Below, piece by piece: positions 12,837 through 21,871 of a stretch of DNA of 48,406 nt (positions are counted from its first letter, which is position 1; the number at the start of each line of letters is the position of its first letter). The stretch comes from Prochlorococcus sp. AG-355-N16 (GTDB taxonomy: Bacteria > Cyanobacteriota > Cyanobacteriia > PCC-6307 > Cyanobiaceae), in the NCBI GenBank assembly GCA_003278545.1, contig QCEF01000008.1, positions 1 to 48,406 on the forward strand. Direction: 5' to 3'. The position numbers were made by a program, and so were the translations under genes. The notes below the pieces were generated by a model. It saw only the letters and a program-made list of their open reading frames with translations, searched no databases and was not told the origin of the DNA.

Positions 12837-12931
12837 GGCATGATGATAATTATCACTTTTTTATCTGCTAATTTTTTTTAAAAATCGAAAAGTTATACAA
12901 AAAACAATAAAAAAATTATTTTTTTTACTTT

Positions 12932-14656: not shown

Positions 14657-15442
14657 TTATTTGCGAAGTTTAGGAATCAAGAGAGATGCCACACAAATAA
14701 CACTAATTGCAGGTCCCGGCGACAAATTAAAGACTATAGAGAGAATAAAGCCCAGAAGTGAGATGCATAATCCAAATAATGAAGACCTCATCATTGCAAT
14801 TCTTAAACTATGAGCCTTATTTAGCCCTAATAAAGTTGGCGTAGAAAGAAGAGCAATAACAAGAATTACTCCCACTGCTGACATTGAACTAACAATTACT
14901 AATGCCGTTGTAAAACTCAAAGCAAGATTTAATAAAGAAACGTTTATACCACTCGCGGATGCACCTTCTGGATCCAATCCCACATAAACAACCTTTTCAT
15001 ATCCAAAAGTCATCAAAAGTATAAATACTAAAAAAGCAATTATTGTTCTAAGTAAATCTCCAAAATTTGCTGTCAATAAATCGCCAAATAATACTGCCTC
15101 CAAATCGATCCTTATCCCGAGTAAAGGGATTATAAGGACTCCAAACCCAAGCATTCCAGCAAGAATAGTATTCATAACTGCTTCATAATTTTCACTTTTT
15201 CTATTAGTTAAACTTTCGGCAATTACTGAGCCCAGAAGACCACTTATAACACCACCAATTGAAGGGTGAATTCCAAGCGCTAATGCGAGAGCAAGTCCAG
15301 GCAACACACAATGAGAGATTAAATTAACTTGTAATAATCTCTTATGAGTGATTAATACAGTTCCCATAGCTGGGCATAAGATCCCAGAGAATATAGTTAT
15401 TATTAATGGAACCAGCCACCAGTTGTTATTAATAAAAGACAT
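14657..15442 (-). CDS. znuB: zinc ABC transporter permease ZnuB
   Basis: 261 residues with about seven to eight membrane helices and the ABC-3 family features. These include the N-terminal GTVLITHKRLLQVNLISHCV region, where the His follows the family's conserved S-H/A-x-x-P-G motif, and the internal LDPEGASASGINVSLL loop. Works with ZnuA and ZnuC to import Zn2+ across the plasma membrane. It lies on the minus strand, separated from znuC by the oppositely oriented zur gene. Confidence 0.92.
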   Translation of the reverse strand: MSFINNNWWLVPLIITIFSGILCPAMGTVLITHKRLLQVNLISHCVLPGLALALALGIHPSIGGVISGLLGSVIAESLTNRKSENYEAVMNTILAGMLGFGVLIIPLLGIRIDLEAVLFGDLLTANFGDLLRTIIAFLVFILLMTFGYEKVVYVGLDPEGASASGINVSLLNLALSFTTALVIVSSMSAVGVILVIALLSTPTLLGLNKAHSLRIAMMRSSLFGLCISLLGFILSIVFNLSPGPAISVICVASLLIPKLRK

Positions 15443-15459
15443 TATTCGAATGATTCGGT

Positions 15460-15894
15460 ATGATCAAAAATGCAGGACAAAAAAAGTTTTCGGAAACAAT
15501 GATAACTAAGTCTGACATTACCAAAAGACAAGCTCAACTTCTTGAAGAACTTAATAAATGCGAAGATGAATTGAGTGGTCAAGAGTTGCATAGACAATTG
15601 ATAGAAAGCGGAAAGGCTATGGGACTTACTACTGTTTACAGGAATCTTCAAGTTCTGATAAAGCATGGCTTAATACGTTCTAGACATCTCCCAACAGGAG
15701 AGGTTCTGTACACACCCGTAGATAGAGATATTCATCATTTGACCTGTGTTCAATGTGGTGAGACATCAAAAATGGAAGGATGTCCTGTAAAAGATATTCA
15801 TACACCCAAAACAAATCCAAAAAAATTCCAATTGTTGTTTCATACCCTCGAATATTTCGGGCTTTGCCAAAACTGTTATCAAGCTCAGAATTAA
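15460..15894 (+). CDS. zur: Fur-family regulator, zinc uptake repressor Zur
   Basis: 144 residues with a winged-helix DNA-binding half (SGQELHRQLIESGKAMGLTTVYRNLQ) and a metal half with DIHHLTCVQCGE. Cys96/Cys99 and Cys136/Cys139 form the structural zinc site. Lies between znuC and znuB, on the other strand, which with the Zur-type palindrome at 16777-16793 supports Zur rather than Fur. Start at 15460 leaves 17 bp to the divergent znuB start. An internal ATG at 15499 would give a protein without the 13-residue extension and is plausible. It converges with znuC, 13 bp apart. Confidence 0.88.
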   Translation: MIKNAGQKKFSETMITKSDITKRQAQLLEELNKCEDELSGQELHRQLIESGKAMGLTTVYRNLQVLIKHGLIRSRHLPTGEVLYTPVDRDIHHLTCVQCGETSKMEGCPVKDIHTPKTNPKKFQLLFHTLEYFGLCQNCYQAQN

Positions 15895-15907: not shown

Positions 15908-16678
15908 CTAATCACAGAAATTATTTTCTTTTATAGAGCTAATGTTTATTGCCTCTAATTTATCTTTTATTAGATCAGGACTACCAACTGCCAAAACACT
16001 TTTATCAAGAACTATTACTTGATCATAATTATTTAAAGACTCGCCCCAATCATGGCTACTTACGAGCAAAGAAAGTCCCGCATCCGCAAGTTGCCGAACT
16101 ATTTTGAGAAAATCCTCTTTTGCAGGAGGGTCCAAAGCTGCACAAGGTTCATCTAAAAGAAATATTTTTGCCGGGGACATAAGAGTTTTTGCTAATAGAG
16201 CTCTTTGTTGCTGTCCTCCTGAAAGAGAATCGAGTCTTCTATTAGCCAAATTTGCAATGCCTACTCTTTGCATTGTCGCCTCTAATTCACAACATTTATT
16301 AATCCAAGAATTTGGATATGCTAGAAGAGTCTTAATTTGAAAGGGGTTATTACTTTTTGATTTTGAATACTTTATTTGACCAAGAGATACCAATTTCTCA
16401 ACTGTAATGGGAAACTTCCAATTCATAGAACTTCTTTGAGGCATAAGTGCCACTAGATTTCTAGATCTATATAAATTTTCACCGTTAATTTTTATTTCGC
16501 CTTTATCTGGAGTATTTTGTCCTTGCAATATTCTCAAAAGAGTTGATTTACCTGCGCCGTTTGGGCCAACTAACGCTGTTAATGTTCCAGGTTTAATCTC
16601 AACCGATACTTTATTTAAAACTGGCTTACTTTTTTTTGTGTATGCAAAGGTTAGATTTTCAGCGACTAAAGTAGCCAT
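15908..16678 (-). CDS. znuC: zinc ABC transporter ATP-binding protein ZnuC
   Basis: 256 residues with Walker A GPNGAGKST (about residue 38), Q-loop in LMPQRSSMNWKFP, signature LSGGQQQRALLAKTL, Walker B IFLLDEP and H-loop SSHDWG. It energises ZnuB. It is divergent from znuA and shares the 135-bp gap with it, which contains the Zur-type palindrome at 16777-16793. Reading on from znuC towards znuB, a transcript would pass through zur in antisense. Confidence 0.93.
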   Translation of the reverse strand: MATLVAENLTFAYTKKSKPVLNKVSVEIKPGTLTALVGPNGAGKSTLLRILQGQNTPDKGEIKINGENLYRSRNLVALMPQRSSMNWKFPITVEKLVSLGQIKYSKSKSNNPFQIKTLLAYPNSWINKCCELEATMQRVGIANLANRRLDSLSGGQQQRALLAKTLMSPAKIFLLDEPCAALDPPAKEDFLKIVRQLADAGLSLLVSSHDWGESLNNYDQVIVLDKSVLAVGSPDLIKDKLEAINISSIKENNFCD

Positions 16679-16776
16679 TAATTAATCTTTTAAAAAGTCA
16701 CTTTACAAGCTTACCAATAATACAAGCTGCGTATTATTTTCATAACATTTGATACCTTTGCTTGCTAGAAATAATG

Positions 16777-16793
16777 AAAATGATTATCATTTT
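16777..16793. promoter_or_regulatory. Zur box between znuC and znuA
   Basis: AAAATGATTATCATTTT is a perfect 8-1-8 inverted repeat, matching the Zur/Fur-type core (TGATAATGATTATCA-like, AATGAT-N-ATCATT). It is 20 bp before the znuA start and 98 bp before the znuC start, in their divergent promoter. Binding by the Zur encoded at 15460 would repress both zinc-import transcription units when zinc is sufficient. Confidence 0.8.
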
Positions 16794-16813: not shown

Positions 16814-18355
16814 ATGTCAATTTTTAAAAGACTTTTAACAAATAAAACAGGTTCAAGTAAGTCAATTATTAAAAATTCCGTAATCGCTGGAACGATTATA
16901 TTTTCTGCTTTTGGGCAGGATGTAATGGCTAAAGGAAAGTCATATGTAGCAGTAGAACCACTAGTGTGTGATTTAGTTAAATCAATTGCATTATCATCTG
17001 ACAAAGTTACATGCTTAGTAGATAGAAAACAGGATGTTCATGACTTAAAGATCAATCCAAGACAAGCTCAATTACTAAATAGCGCAGACAAAGTATTTAC
17101 TCTTGGGAAAGAAATGACTCCAAGTATGAGAAATTGGGAAAATAAAAAGAACACTGTTGTTGTAGGTGTTAGTGCAATAGACGTAGATGATCATTCTGAT
17201 CATGGAGGCCACGATGATCACTCAGAGCATGGAGGACATGATGATCATTCTGAACATTCAGCTAATGTAGATGATCATTCTGATCATGGAGATCATGATG
17301 ATCATTCAGACCATGGAGGACATGAAGATCATGCTGAGGGTACTTTCGAATGGGCAGGTAAATTCCAACTCTCTAAGGGCTCTTACAAATGGTCATTTGA
17401 AAAAGTCGATGGCGAATATGCAGATCCTGCAATGAAAATGGTGATTCTAAAATCTGATGACATAGAGGGGTCTGAAGATTTAGCTAAAGAATTATTAGGA
17501 TCTAAAGACTCAATAAGCAGAAAAAATAATGGTACTTTGATCGCAAGTAATAAAGCTTTTGTTCTTAACTTTGATCAAAGAAAAGAGAGTACTGTTTTTA
17601 ACGTGGATATCAAGGAAGATGGTCAATATATATTCTTTACTGAACACATGCCTTTTGAGTTTGAAGCAACTCAACACTTTTTTAAAGACGTTTTAAATAG
17701 TGATGTAGAACCAATAGCACAAGTACCAGATGAAGGAGAGGGGCATCATCATCATGACCATGGAGGTCTAGATCCACATGTATGGCATGATCCACATAAC
17801 ATCATAAAAATGGGAGATCTTATAAGCAAAAGTTTAAAGAAAGATATTTCAGTTTTTAATAGAGGGGACAGAAAACTTATTAATGAAAGATTCGAAAAAG
17901 CTGATTCTCTCTTAGAAGACTTAGATAGTTGGATCGTCGAACAAGTAAGCTCTATTCCTGAGGAAAACAGAGTAATTGTCTCTAAACACAAAGCGATGGA
18001 ATACTATGGTGATGCATTTGGTTTTGAAACCATTAGTTTACTTGACTTTCTTGGAGACTCCTCAAGTTTAAGGCCAGACAACATAAGTTCTACTTTAAAA
18101 ATGTTAGATGAAGAGAATGTTCAGGCAATATTTCCTGAACAAATTCCAGCATCAAAGTTATTAAGGAACTTAAGTAGACAAAGTTCAGTTCCTTTAGCTT
18201 CTAATCAAATATTTGTTGATGGGTTGATGATGGATGGTAATACGGTTTCAGTAGCCGTTCACAACACTTGTACAATTGTTGATTCATTAGGTGGAAGCTG
18301 TAATAAAAACTCTGGCTCAAATCTTGAGTCTGAATGGTACAAACTTTCAGATTAA
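16814..18355 (+). CDS. znuA: zinc ABC transporter substrate-binding protein ZnuA with His-rich loop and extra inserted domain
   Basis: Periplasmic zinc-binding component, 513 residues, about 200 longer than usual. N-terminal part has YVAVEPLVCDLVKSI with His76 in KQDVHDL as first ligand. Residues 125-173 are a His/Asp repeat with 15 His. Residues about 178-297 are an extra domain starting FEWAGKFQLSKGSY and ending near FFTEHMPFEFE. A second His cluster (311-316) and DPHVWHDPHN (320-329) carry the next ligand, then SKHKAMEYYG with His392 and the C-terminal lobe. The extra domain resembles residues 221-340 of the next gene's product. Zur box lies 20 bp upstream. Confidence 0.92.
   Translation: MSIFKRLLTNKTGSSKSIIKNSVIAGTIIFSAFGQDVMAKGKSYVAVEPLVCDLVKSIALSSDKVTCLVDRKQDVHDLKINPRQAQLLNSADKVFTLGKEMTPSMRNWENKKNTVVVGVSAIDVDDHSDHGGHDDHSEHGGHDDHSEHSANVDDHSDHGDHDDHSDHGGHEDHAEGTFEWAGKFQLSKGSYKWSFEKVDGEYADPAMKMVILKSDDIEGSEDLAKELLGSKDSISRKNNGTLIASNKAFVLNFDQRKESTVFNVDIKEDGQYIFFTEHMPFEFEATQHFFKDVLNSDVEPIAQVPDEGEGHHHHDHGGLDPHVWHDPHNIIKMGDLISKSLKKDISVFNRGDRKLINERFEKADSLLEDLDSWIVEQVSSIPEENRVIVSKHKAMEYYGDAFGFETISLLDFLGDSSSLRPDNISSTLKMLDEENVQAIFPEQIPASKLLRNLSRQSSVPLASNQIFVDGLMMDGNTVSVAVHNTCTIVDSLGGSCNKNSGSNLESEWYKLSD
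17186..17332 (+). repeat. His-rich coding repeat in znuA
   Basis: Encodes residues 125-173 of ZnuA as repeated DDHSDHGGH/DDHSEHGGH units with small variations, broken once by SANV. His occurs at every third residue over long stretches. The repeat is encoded with near-identical codons (GATGATCATTCTGATCATGG-like), so expansion by slippage or recombination is likely. Zn2+ capture by the loop is inferred from known ZnuA proteins. Confidence 0.8.
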
Positions 18356-18387
18356 ATTTTTCTAATAAAAACGGTTTTCATTTCTTA

Positions 18388-18425
18388 TTTTTACTATTAT
18401 TAAACTATTGTTTATTTAGTAAAAA
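18388..18425. promoter_or_regulatory. inverted repeat upstream of the CobW-type gene
   Basis: TTTTTACTA (18388-18396) and TAGTAAAAA (18417-18425) form a perfect 9-bp inverted repeat with a 20-nt spacer. It ends 7 bp before the ATG at 18433 and overlaps the expected ribosome-binding region. It could be an operator or an RNA hairpin; the sequence is AT-rich, so chance is not excluded. It does not match the Zur palindrome. Confidence 0.3.
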
Positions 18426-18432
18426 TCAGTAA

Positions 18433-19782
18433 ATGAGCATCAAAGATAAGGTTCCAGTAACAATCCTAACTGGATTCTTAGGTTCAGGTAAGACTACTTT
18501 GCTTAATAGAATACTAAGTGAAGAGCACGGGAAAAGAATAGCCGTAATTGAGAATGAATACGGTGAAGTAGGTATAGATCAAGGTCTCGTAATTAATGCC
18601 GATGAAGAAGTGTTTGAGATGTCAAACGGGTGCATTTGTTGTACTGTTCGCGGTGATTTAATAAGAGTCCTTGGCAACCTCATGAAAAGAAGAGATAAGT
18701 TTGACTATGTTTTAGTAGAAACAACAGGATTAGCAGATCCAGGCCCAGTTGCTCAGACTTTTTTCATGGATGAAGAGATTAGTTCTGAATTTACTCTTGA
18801 TGGAATTGTGACTTTAGTTGATGCTGCACATATTGATCAACAGCTAGGCAGGAGTGACGAAAGTTCAGAGCAAGTAGCATTTGCAGATGTTCTTGTCCTT
18901 AATAAAACTGATTTAGTTTCTGATGATGCACTAGATACTCTTGAATCGAGATTGAGAGATATGAACCGAATGACTCGAATTATTCGAGCCGAGAATGCCA
19001 AAGTACCCATTGAAACAGTCTTGAATCTAAGTGCATTTGATCTTGATCAGATCCTTAAACGCAGGCCAACATTCCTTGAACCAGAATATCCATTTGAATG
19101 GACAGGTGTTTACGATCTTGATCCAGGCAAATATGAATTAATACTAGAAGAAGGACCAGATCCAGAAATGTCCCTAGTAGCTCTTGTTAACCAAGGTGAG
19201 AATGAGGAAGAACTTAAAGATGGTGCTGAATCCTCCGTAAGACTTTATGCAGAAAAAGCTAATACTTTAGAGCCTGGAAATACTATTCAATATGGAGAAC
19301 ATATAAATCTCAGATTGGAGGATAAAGGAAATAAATCCTTCATCCTTAACATAGAAAAACCAACAAAAATAGGTTTGTTTACGCAGCACACTGCTGAAGA
19401 ATTCAATATGAAAGTCATTAAAAGTGACGAAAATAAAGAGATTCCATTTAATACTGAAAGGTTCTGGCAAGCAGAGCATGAACATGATGATGAAGTTGGC
19501 TCAATTGCTATAGAGCGTTTTGGAGATGTTGACCCAGAAAAACTAAATACTTGGATGGGAAGACTTCTCTCAGAAAAAGGGGTGGATATATTCAGAACTA
19601 AAGGTTTCATAAGTTACTCAGGGAACCCAAGAAGAATAGTTTTCCAAGGAGTACACATGTTATTTACTGCACAACCTGACAAAGAATGGGGTAACGAACC
19701 TCGTAGAAATCAACTTGTTTTTATCGGTAGAAATCTAAATGAGAAAGAGATGCAAGAAGGCTTTGATAAATGCCTGATATAG
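18433..19782 (+). CDS. CobW/COG0523-family GTPase (putative zinc chaperone) with inserted domain
   Basis: 449 residues. GTPase motifs are Walker A GFLGSGKTT (14-22), the metal-binding GCICC (66-70), ETTGLADPGP (96-105) and NKTD (157-160). Residues 221-340 are an extra domain (FEWTGVYDLDPGKYELILEE onward, IGLFTQHTAEEF at 313-324) also seen in the ZnuA upstream. HEHDD follows at 349-353, then a CobW_C domain (about 355-447) with GNPRRIVFQGVHMLF. Position 78 bp after znuA and overlap of 13 bp with the next gene suggest a zinc operon. A ZNG1/ZigA-like role in zinc delivery is inferred. Confidence 0.85.
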   Translation: MSIKDKVPVTILTGFLGSGKTTLLNRILSEEHGKRIAVIENEYGEVGIDQGLVINADEEVFEMSNGCICCTVRGDLIRVLGNLMKRRDKFDYVLVETTGLADPGPVAQTFFMDEEISSEFTLDGIVTLVDAAHIDQQLGRSDESSEQVAFADVLVLNKTDLVSDDALDTLESRLRDMNRMTRIIRAENAKVPIETVLNLSAFDLDQILKRRPTFLEPEYPFEWTGVYDLDPGKYELILEEGPDPEMSLVALVNQGENEEELKDGAESSVRLYAEKANTLEPGNTIQYGEHINLRLEDKGNKSFILNIEKPTKIGLFTQHTAEEFNMKVIKSDENKEIPFNTERFWQAEHEHDDEVGSIAIERFGDVDPEKLNTWMGRLLSEKGVDIFRTKGFISYSGNPRRIVFQGVHMLFTAQPDKEWGNEPRRNQLVFIGRNLNEKEMQEGFDKCLI

Positions 19783-20843
19783 AACCATTTAGCCCGAGAG
19801 GCATGTTCCATGAAGGATGGACAGCTGAAGTTAACGATTACGCCATTGCGTGTGGCTGGGCTCTTAAAGGTAAACAATTTATTGTTGGCGACGTGGCAGG
19901 AGGTCTTTTTGCATTCGAAGGAGATACTGGAAAAATTATTTGGAAAAAAGAAAATACACATTCTGGTGGTCTACTAGCAATGGCCATTCATCCAGAGGGT
20001 GAAATTTTGGCAACATCAGGTCAAGATGGAAATGTTCAAATTTGTAATTGTCACGAAGGTAAAGTAACTAAAACTCTTGATCTTGGTAAGGGTTGGGTAG
20101 AACACCTCAAGTGGTCTAATGACGGTCTATTTCTAGCCATAGCTTCCTCAAGAAAGGTATATGTTTTTAATGAAGTTGGTGAAGAGAAATGGATCTCAGA
20201 AGACCACCCAAGCACTGTAAGTGCAATAACATGGTCAAATAAAAATGAACTAGCTACTGCTTGCTACGGAAGAGTGACATTCTTTGACATAGTTAATAAT
20301 AAAATGAATCAAAAACTCGAGTGGCAAGGATCATTGGTATCAATGGAATTAAGTCCTGATGGAGATATAGTTGCCTGTGGGAGTCAAGACAATTCAGTTC
20401 ATTTTTGGAGAAGATCAACCGGAATGGATGCTGAAATGACAGGATACCCAGGTAAACCAAGTCATCTTTCTTTTGATGACAGCGGAAAATTATTAGCAAC
20501 TAGTGGCAGTGAAAGAATTACAGTTTGGAGCTTTATAGGAAATGGTCCAGAAGGGACTATGCCAGGAGAGCTATGTCACCATACAGAACCCATTTCGAGC
20601 CTTGCCTTTTCAAATAAAGGTATGCTTGTAGCCTCAGGATCTAGAGATGGTTCTGTTGTCGCAAGTTTTTTAAAAAAAGACGGTAATGGTGACCCAGTTG
20701 GGGCTGCATTCGCCGGAGATTTAGTAGGGGCAATCTCCTGGAGACCTGATGATTGTGCACTTGCAGCAGTTAATGCAAAAGGTGTTGTAAATGTATGGAA
20801 ATTTAAAGTTCGTACTAACCTTTTTTCAAAGGGATTTAAATAA
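19770..20843 (+). CDS. WD40-repeat protein linked to zinc genes
   Basis: 357 residues forming about seven WD40-like blades, visible as repeated units such as LAMAIHPEGEILATSGQDGN, LVSMELSPDGDIVACGSQDN and ISSLAFSNKGMLVASGSRDG. No signal peptide or catalytic domain, so probably a cytoplasmic scaffold. Its start overlaps the end of the CobW-type gene by 13 bp, a sign of translational coupling. It may present partners of the zinc chaperone; this is inference from position only. Confidence 0.85.
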   Translation: MPDIEPFSPRGMFHEGWTAEVNDYAIACGWALKGKQFIVGDVAGGLFAFEGDTGKIIWKKENTHSGGLLAMAIHPEGEILATSGQDGNVQICNCHEGKVTKTLDLGKGWVEHLKWSNDGLFLAIASSRKVYVFNEVGEEKWISEDHPSTVSAITWSNKNELATACYGRVTFFDIVNNKMNQKLEWQGSLVSMELSPDGDIVACGSQDNSVHFWRRSTGMDAEMTGYPGKPSHLSFDDSGKLLATSGSERITVWSFIGNGPEGTMPGELCHHTEPISSLAFSNKGMLVASGSRDGSVVASFLKKDGNGDPVGAAFAGDLVGAISWRPDDCALAAVNAKGVVNVWKFKVRTNLFSKGFK

Positions 20844-21595: not shown

Positions 21596-21871
21596 ATGGT
21601 TCGATATTATTGCCCATATTGCAATCCTAAATATCAATTTCAAAAACAATCCTTAAAAGGTAATTTGATTTGTGGATTATGCGGAGAGGATCTCGTAAAA
21701 AAACCATATATTAGGTTAAACCAGATAATCGCTTTAGTTGCTGCTTCATCATTACTTCTACCGTTGATTTATACTTTTATTTTTTTAATTAAAAATCAAA
21801 TAAATCCTCCTAATAAAAATTATCAAGCAAATGGTACTTTAATGATAATTATCAAAGAACAAACTTCATAA
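21596..21871 (+). CDS. zinc-ribbon membrane protein (91 aa)
   Basis: MVRYYCPYCNPKYQF and, after a short spacer, LICGLCGEDL form a four-Cys zinc ribbon (C-x2-C, 17 residues, C-x2-C). A membrane helix follows (IIALVAASSLLLPLIYTFIF), then a polar tail. It resembles small zinc-ribbon membrane proteins of unknown role. It begins 58 bp after the terminator. Confidence 0.65.
   Translation: MVRYYCPYCNPKYQFQKQSLKGNLICGLCGEDLVKKPYIRLNQIIALVAASSLLLPLIYTFIFLIKNQINPPNKNYQANGTLMIIIKEQTS

Follow-up and report, generated by a model that had tools for sequence, protein, structure and literature searches.

A domain of about 120 residues shared by a ZnuA-type protein and the neighbouring COG0523 GTPase of Prochlorococcus, with a possible role as a metal relay

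Two similar inserts at a ZnuA-GTPase locus

We analysed contig QCEF01000008.1 of Prochlorococcus sp. AG-355-N16 (assembly GCA_003278545.1), a stretch of 48,406 nucleotides hereafter called the window, in which a gene for a ZnuA-type substrate-binding protein is followed on the same strand by a gene for a COG0523 (CobW-type) GTPase. An initial annotation had proposed that the two proteins share an inserted domain, and the coordinates and motifs it gave are right, with ZnuA residues 178-297 encoded at 17345-17704 and GTPase residues 221-340 at 19093-19452. The similarity of the two segments goes beyond chance in BLASTP, Smith-Waterman and HHalign comparisons alike. BLASTP of one insert against the other gave 29.6 bits (E=4e-6, 27% identity across 114 columns), and the Smith-Waterman score was 77, where 2000 shuffles reached no more than 63 and 520 comparisons between other 120-residue pieces of ZnuA and the GTPase no more than 34. 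HHalign, run on profiles of 7 ZnuA-type and 16 GTPase-type sequences (filtered at 90% identity, X-containing rows removed), returned a probability of 98.2 and a score of 82.7, with column-shuffled profiles reaching at most 20.6 (n=200). The shuffle controls of HHalign and Smith-Waterman rule out chance or low-complexity similarity. When the organism's own whole genome was searched with the GTPase insert at E<=10, only two places were found, the insert itself and the ZnuA insert (E=0.02). These alignments show that the ZnuA insert and the GTPase insert are homologous, that is, one domain.

The features of the locus are collected in Table 1; signal peptides, lipoboxes and membrane spans were assigned by visual inspection throughout. 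The PF01297 match spans both lobes of the window ZnuA. In the GTPase, the GSGKTT, CICC and NKTD motifs start at residues 17, 67 and 157, and the nearest solved sequence is YjiA. The WD40 protein of the window has no signal peptide by eye.

Table 1. Genes and other features around the two copies of the shared domain (window coordinates)
Feature	Position	Strand	Evidence and remarks
Metal ABC-transporter permease gene (znuB candidate)	14657..15442	-	PF00950 ABC-3 E=7e-43
Fur-family regulator gene (Zur candidate)	15460..15894	+	PF01475 E=7e-19; zinc specificity inferred from neighbours
ABC-transporter ATPase gene (znuC candidate)	15908..16678	-	PF00005 E=7e-31
Zur/Fur-box-like palindrome TGAAAATGATTATCA	16775..16789	+	Between znuC (-) and znuA (+); 1 mismatch to TGATAATNATTATCA
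znuA, 513-residue substrate-binding protein with insert	16814..18355	+	PF01297 E=2.2e-41, two stretches
His/Asp-rich arm of ZnuA before insert	17186..17344	+	Limits by eye
Shared domain, extracytoplasmic type, in ZnuA	17345..17716	+	Domain-profile match E=4e-33; invariant E179, D204, H278, E282, F283
Second His-rich arm of ZnuA (HHHHDHGG), after insert	17740..17769	+	Limits by eye
COG0523 GTPase, 449 residues; Walker A, GCICC, NKTD motifs	18433..19782	+	PF02492 E=2e-61, PF07683 E=2e-24
Shared domain, GTPase type, between GTPase and CobW_C domains	19087..19461	+	Domain-profile match E=4e-43; invariant E222, D243, H319, E323, F324
CobW_C domain, directly after HEH motif (H349, H351)	19498..19776	+	
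WD40-repeat protein gene, overlaps GTPase gene end	19770..20843	+	PF00400 E=1e-26; conserved neighbour

The reference for the palindrome upstream of znuA was TGATAATNATTATCA, a Zur/Fur-box motif. With up to 2 mismatches it has 4 matches in the window where 1.36 are expected, and 4 were reached in 7 of 100 shuffles; alone the box is statistically weak, and its placement is suggestive. The three further matches, at 12841-12855, 21811-21825 and 21840-21854 with 1-2 mismatches, are not linked to genes in this analysis.

The cluster of GTPase, WD40 and znuABC genes is in itself already known: Haas et al. 2009 (PMC2770081) describe COG0523 subfamily 5 as clustering with WD40-repeat genes and znuABC, in some cases with Zur sites, and name Prochlorococcus marinus among the genomes in which a Zur site precedes COG0523 genes. 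By gene context rather than by a tree, the window protein resembles that subfamily, being a G3E GTPase with a CxCC motif, an overlapping WD40 gene and adjoining znuA, ABC-3 permease and ABC ATPase genes; the inserted domain is not mentioned in the available part of that paper.

Hosts, insert-less relatives and distribution

Both copies interrupt otherwise normal proteins, as had been proposed. The GTPase segment is flanked by cobW (8-184) and CobW_C (356-448) domains, and insert-less relatives exist for both ZnuA and the GTPase. The ZnuA copy is indeed near the His-rich loop, but it lies inside that loop, with His-rich sequence on both sides, and not after it as first described. In a same-family sample of 201 genomes, and among the matches listed, 50 genomes had a GTPase aligned through the insert, 24 other genomes had a related GTPase (56-60% identity) whose best-aligned piece ended at about residue 219 (217-220), and no genome fell into both groups. 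At all ten insert-less GTPase loci fetched, the GTPase and CobW_C regions are directly joined and a WD40 gene adjoins; a WD40 match was likewise found at 11 of 13 insert-type GTPase loci, the exceptions being L188, a short contig, and L192.

Among close relatives, the number of domain copies in ZnuA is 0, 1 or 2. The ZnuA of genome G167 lacks the insert but keeps the lobes and the His-rich loop, even though the GTPases of this genome and of the window are 98% identical; since G167 stands beside insert carriers in a tree of the ZnuA C-lobe (100/99), its state fits a loss of the insert. In genome G067, ZnuA carries two tandem copies that are 74% identical. The 873-residue ZnuA frame of genome G078 (locus L138) crosses unknown bases, so its two apparent copies, unlike those of G067, may have been produced by the assembly. 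The two genes can also stand apart, as in genome G661, where about 620 kb separate the ZnuA copy (C1:355056) from the GTPase copy (C1:979299). A separate observation concerns genome G065, where a 116-residue GTPase fragment, 93% identical to the window's GTPase, stands beside an insert-type ZnuA (C1:32608-34348) and the full-length GTPase, about 80% identical to the window's, is far away; this znuA-GTPase segment looks laterally moved.

Across a phylum-wide sample, the domain was found in 31 of 386 cyanobacterial genomes. With copy types called from frame length and match, and not by opening each one, the GTPase type is present in all 31 and accompanied by the ZnuA type in 22, and the ZnuA type never occurs by itself. 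A separate class-wide search, in which the GTPase insert was the only query, gave matches in 24 of 291 genomes, and in a search of genome contigs with the ZnuA protein the best 80 of 284 matching stretches were all titled Prochlorococcus or uncultured Synechococcaceae. No relative of the domain was found in viral contigs, and none of the GTPase insert in phage records searched with that insert.

Outside cyanobacteria the search covered plasmid records, so the breadth seen there is a lower bound. The window GTPase insert matched 11 of these records, the ZnuA insert 8, and a more central cyanobacterial GTPase copy 13, two of them weakly (E 0.03 and 0.9). Three of the 11 good records hold COG0523 GTPase hosts, two of them incomplete genes, and four hold ZnuA-like hosts. 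The intact GTPase is on a Pantoea agglomerans plasmid. That of Paraburkholderia sprentiae (L145:3164-6720) is incomplete, without its first 78 residues or so and with an IS21 transposase gene upstream, and a Pantoea soli plasmid (L150:5073-9746) has a broken pair of insert-type GTPase and WD40 genes near a NicO transporter, a transcriptional repressor and zigA. The ZnuA-like hosts, from Haloarcula halophila, H. rara, Halorientalis and Halorubrum, all match PF01297. The window's ZnuA insert finds a Haloarcula ZnuA directly (E=2e-10), and the domain has the same position in cyanobacterial and haloarchaeal ZnuA, in the His-rich loop before the DPHxW segment.

The domain also stands alone in three short haloarchaeal proteins (Natrinema, Halomontanus, Halosolutus) with a lipoprotein-like start, and in Alicyclobacillus curvatus (L143:6794-7705) it lies between hydrophobic segments in a protein that has an HSILPDHW motif and no match to a Pfam family. 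Assignment of the Alicyclobacillus protein to the NicO family was tried and dropped, as it showed no likeness (probability 0.6%). The matches in other bacteria and haloarchaea rule out a domain confined to cyanobacteria, and the tally of hosts now comprises cyanobacterial ZnuA and COG0523 proteins, several bacterial phyla and haloarchaea. Judging compartments from host type, the earlier proposal that the domain is used on both sides of the membrane is borne out. As an aside, two insert-less COG0523-type GTPase genes lie upstream of insert-type haloarchaeal znuA genes (L142:899-5066 and L149:1-4086), as do molybdenum-cofactor-type, Fe-S scaffold and cobalt-factor II methyltransferase genes, and a 73-codon gene is found between znuA and znuC.

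To place the copies relative to one another we used a tree of 40 copies, which is unrooted, rests on a short alignment with the longest rows included and has long branches that meet, as the tool warned. In it, a branch supported at 96/91 parts the GTPase copies from the extracytoplasmic ones (ZnuA, short haloarchaeal, Alicyclobacillus), and the broken Pantoea soli GTPase is no true exception to this split. Given the split, it is unlikely that either of the window's two neighbouring copies gave rise to the other; the ZnuA copy has its closer kin in haloarchaeal ZnuA proteins and lipoproteins, and not in the GTPase copy that adjoins it. Duplication inside the operon is rejected with a reservation: a grouping of cyanobacterial ZnuA with Prochlorococcaceae GTPase copies was rejected (p-AU 0.0034), and one of cyanobacterial ZnuA with all cyanobacterial GTPase copies was borderline (p-AU 0.0497). 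The idea of the domain as an invention or duplication within this operon is not supported, given its occurrence in several phyla and haloarchaea and the affinity of its ZnuA copy to the haloarchaeal ones. In the ZnuA C-lobe tree, which is unrooted and short, with long branches, and holds 19 of 47 loci after filtering, a 100/99 branch separates the cyanobacterial insert carriers from the haloarchaeal ones. Domain and host thus seem to have had different histories, and this points either to movement of the domain between ZnuA lineages or to more than one insertion.

Invariant residues, flanks and predicted fold

Exactly five columns, E, D, H, E and F, are invariant in all 39 distinct copies, a set that spans cyanobacteria, Proteobacteria, Alicyclobacillus and haloarchaea and from which one further row, the broken Pantoea soli piece, had first been dropped; as many of these copies come from closely related Prochlorococcaceae, 39 overstates the number of independent lines. 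GTPase residues E222, D243, H319, E323 and F324 correspond in this order to ZnuA residues E179, D204, H278, E282 and F283. Four of the five (E, D, H, E) are usual metal ligands, and columns of W, G, L and P are conserved in 38 of 39 copies.

The sequence around the domain is rich in His. Within 30 residues of it, His makes up 23.5% of residues in ZnuA hosts against 3.2% in the rest of the protein, and 3.7% against 1.8% in the GTPases. The richer flank has at least two His in 39 of 39 copies and at least three in 23 of 39, and in all three standalone haloarchaeal proteins His-rich stretches lie on both sides of the domain.

The remark that no named domain is known for it is supported as far as Pfam and NCBIfam go, where both window inserts remained without a match at E<=1. 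When 15 diverse members were searched, five Pfam families appeared, each for one member, none above its curated cut-off and the best at E 0.022 (CBM_35; PA14 was another, at 0.098), and NCBIfam gave NF005913 in 2 of 15, at best with 19.3 bits against a cut-off of 382. PHROGs gave single weak matches at most, and a PDB sequence search with the domain profile gave weak rows only, the best at E 0.28.

AlphaFold models predict a beta sandwich of about 120 residues with one helix, both inserts showing three strands, a helix and then four or five strands. The best model of the ZnuA insert has a mean pLDDT of 75.8 (58.0-66.6 for the other four models), and the GTPase insert one of 63.2. The comparison of structures suggested initially thus returned the same order of strands and helix, but the alignments behind both models mixed ZnuA and GTPase inserts, so that their agreement is no independent test of one fold, and no significant match to a known fold emerged: Foldseek found none at E<=0.001 against PDB for either model or against BFVD for the ZnuA-insert model. 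The best structural Z-scores are 6.3 (an ephrin-receptor domain) and 6.9 (the GPR180 N-terminal domain), on a scale where, according to the tool, 7 to 8 is the typical best for models without a clear match. GOLD-type domains, which include the SEC14-like and GPR180 regions, recur in the lists of both models at Z 5.1-6.9, possibly just as a common arrangement, according to the tool; the scores for the two models, all below 8, are 5.5/5.3 for 5azw, 5.9/5.5 for 1o6u, 5.7/6.0 for 4tlg and 5.1/6.9 for 9fow. From the order of strands, E, D, H and E would lie at one end of the predicted sandwich.

Several known zinc proteins invite comparison. The window ZnuA is like ZnuA cluster A-I in its PF01297 match, His-rich loop and DPHxWxDP segment, and differs in the extra domain of about 120 residues within the loop, which the ZnuA of G167 lacks. 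AdcA is a ZnuA-type protein fused to a C-terminal ZinT domain that is thought to recruit zinc. The window ZnuA shares with it the plan of a ZnuA-type protein with an extra domain; however, ZinT is not listed for the window proteins in Pfam or NCBIfam at E<=1, and the match of the AdcA model NF033605 to a window protein is limited to profile positions 139-264 of 517. ZepA, which occurs in cyanobacteria and others, is an exported, beta-rich zinc-handling protein whose gene neighbourhood includes COG0523 genes, and consists of two domains, an Ig-like A and a B of unique fold, with an H-x2-9-H-F/Y-H site (PMC10957091). That motif is absent from the window copies, which have two His each, too few for it, and a single one invariant. 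AztD is a periplasmic or surface-bound beta-propeller that is often encoded beside ZnuA-type and CobW-family genes and gives zinc to AztC (PMC6689063); it appears to differ from the window WD40 protein in being exported, and it would correspond to the neighbour of the shared domain and not to the domain itself. A search of the open PMC literature on COG0523 and ZnuA, with subscription papers and supplementary files not covered, found no description of the shared domain.

A proposed metal relay and its alternatives

Most copies examined have a metal context. A NicO nickel-transporter gene adjoins the GTPase in other cyanobacteria (L186, L187, L190, L191, L192; all five tested match PF03824), and a urease operon adjoins the standalone copy of Natrinema. 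Because of these neighbours the metal need not be zinc and may vary, and the natural reading of the sequences would be a transition-metal domain that is not tied to zinc.

On this basis the shared domain may be a transition-metal relay that works with the adjoining His-rich arms, a reading to which we give an even chance. A self-standing beta-sandwich domain would have been placed repeatedly into proteins of transition-metal uptake and delivery, and its invariant E, D, H and E would come together at one of the sandwich ends as a weak metal-ion site, beside flexible His-rich arms. Outside the membrane, zinc trapped by the His-rich loop of ZnuA would be picked up by the domain and offered to the binding cleft. 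Inside the cell, the domain of the GTPase would receive metal imported through ZnuBC and offer it on the CobW_C/HEH side, from where the metal would be loaded into the GTP-dependent CxCC site or, together with the WD40 partner, handed to a client. What we infer here is that there is a metal site, where it lies, which way the metal is transferred and which metal it is, with compartments taken from host type. The reading draws on the observed homology, insertion and breadth, on the 7 of 11 plasmid hosts that are GTPases or ZnuA-like, on the five invariants, the His-rich flanks and the urease neighbour, on the Fur-family, ABC-3 permease and ATPase genes and the Zur-like box that adjoin at the window locus, and on the varying copy number of 0, 1 or 2 in the ZnuA of close relatives.

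Several observations weigh against a relay. For 4 of the 11 plasmid records the host fits no known family, around the other two standalone haloarchaeal genes (L147, L151) metal genes are not evident, and His residues are few, with two in each window copy and one of them invariant. The HxH after the GTPase insert also occurs in an insert-less protein and was therefore not brought by the domain. The structural neighbours are weak, being mostly capsid, adhesin, receptor and GOLD-type sandwiches and not metal-transfer proteins, and the models by which E, D, H and E would meet in space are of moderate confidence.

The main rival is a docking module, in which the domain binds a protein partner (the permease in the case of ZnuA, the WD40 protein or a client in that of the GTPase) and the invariants form an interaction surface instead of a metal site. 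GOLD domains bind proteins, so their recurrence in both models' lists speaks for docking, as do the WD40 gene at 11 of 13 insert-type loci and a conservation that extends beyond the acidic residues and His to W, G, L, P and F. However, the pairing with WD40 has no need of the insert, being found at 10 of 10 insert-less loci, and is missing at the two insert-type exceptions; one and the same partner could not contact the domain both outside and inside the membrane, and the lone haloarchaeal proteins carry it with His-rich flanks. We consider docking possible but doubtful.

A stable sandwich that binds nothing itself and serves to hold the His-rich arms or keep them apart would explain why stretches containing His adjoin the domain in 39 of 39 copies and why it can be absent, single or doubled without loss of the host gene; five invariants, four of them polar, in 39 bacterial and archaeal copies exceed the needs of a spacer, and we regard this as improbable. 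Least probable is another ligand such as a glycan or lipid, as in carbohydrate-binding jelly rolls, to which the Candida Epa adhesins in the top Foldseek PDB rows of both models and the single-member CBM_35 and PA14 matches point, but whose structural matches are all weak (no E<=0.001, best Z as above) and for which a cytoplasmic GTPase has no evident use at the level of cell-surface glycans.

Beyond the metal relay itself, a wider form of it can be imagined, which we hold to be unlikely: the domain would be a mobile, undescribed, metal-binding family that marks stations along a route (surface lipoprotein, ZnuA, membrane protein, GTPase), with metal passing by like-to-like exchange across the membrane in bacteria and archaea.

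The spread of the shared domain over such hosts suggests a reusable metal-handling part without description in the sources searched, and bears on how zinc passes from an importer to COG0523 chaperones. Its five invariants, together with the natural insert-less relatives of each host, make its role testable. The domain also offers an annotation for unnamed short haloarchaeal proteins, one of them linked to urease, and a way into the study of how Prochlorococcus, a phototroph abundant in the zinc-poor ocean, acquires metals.

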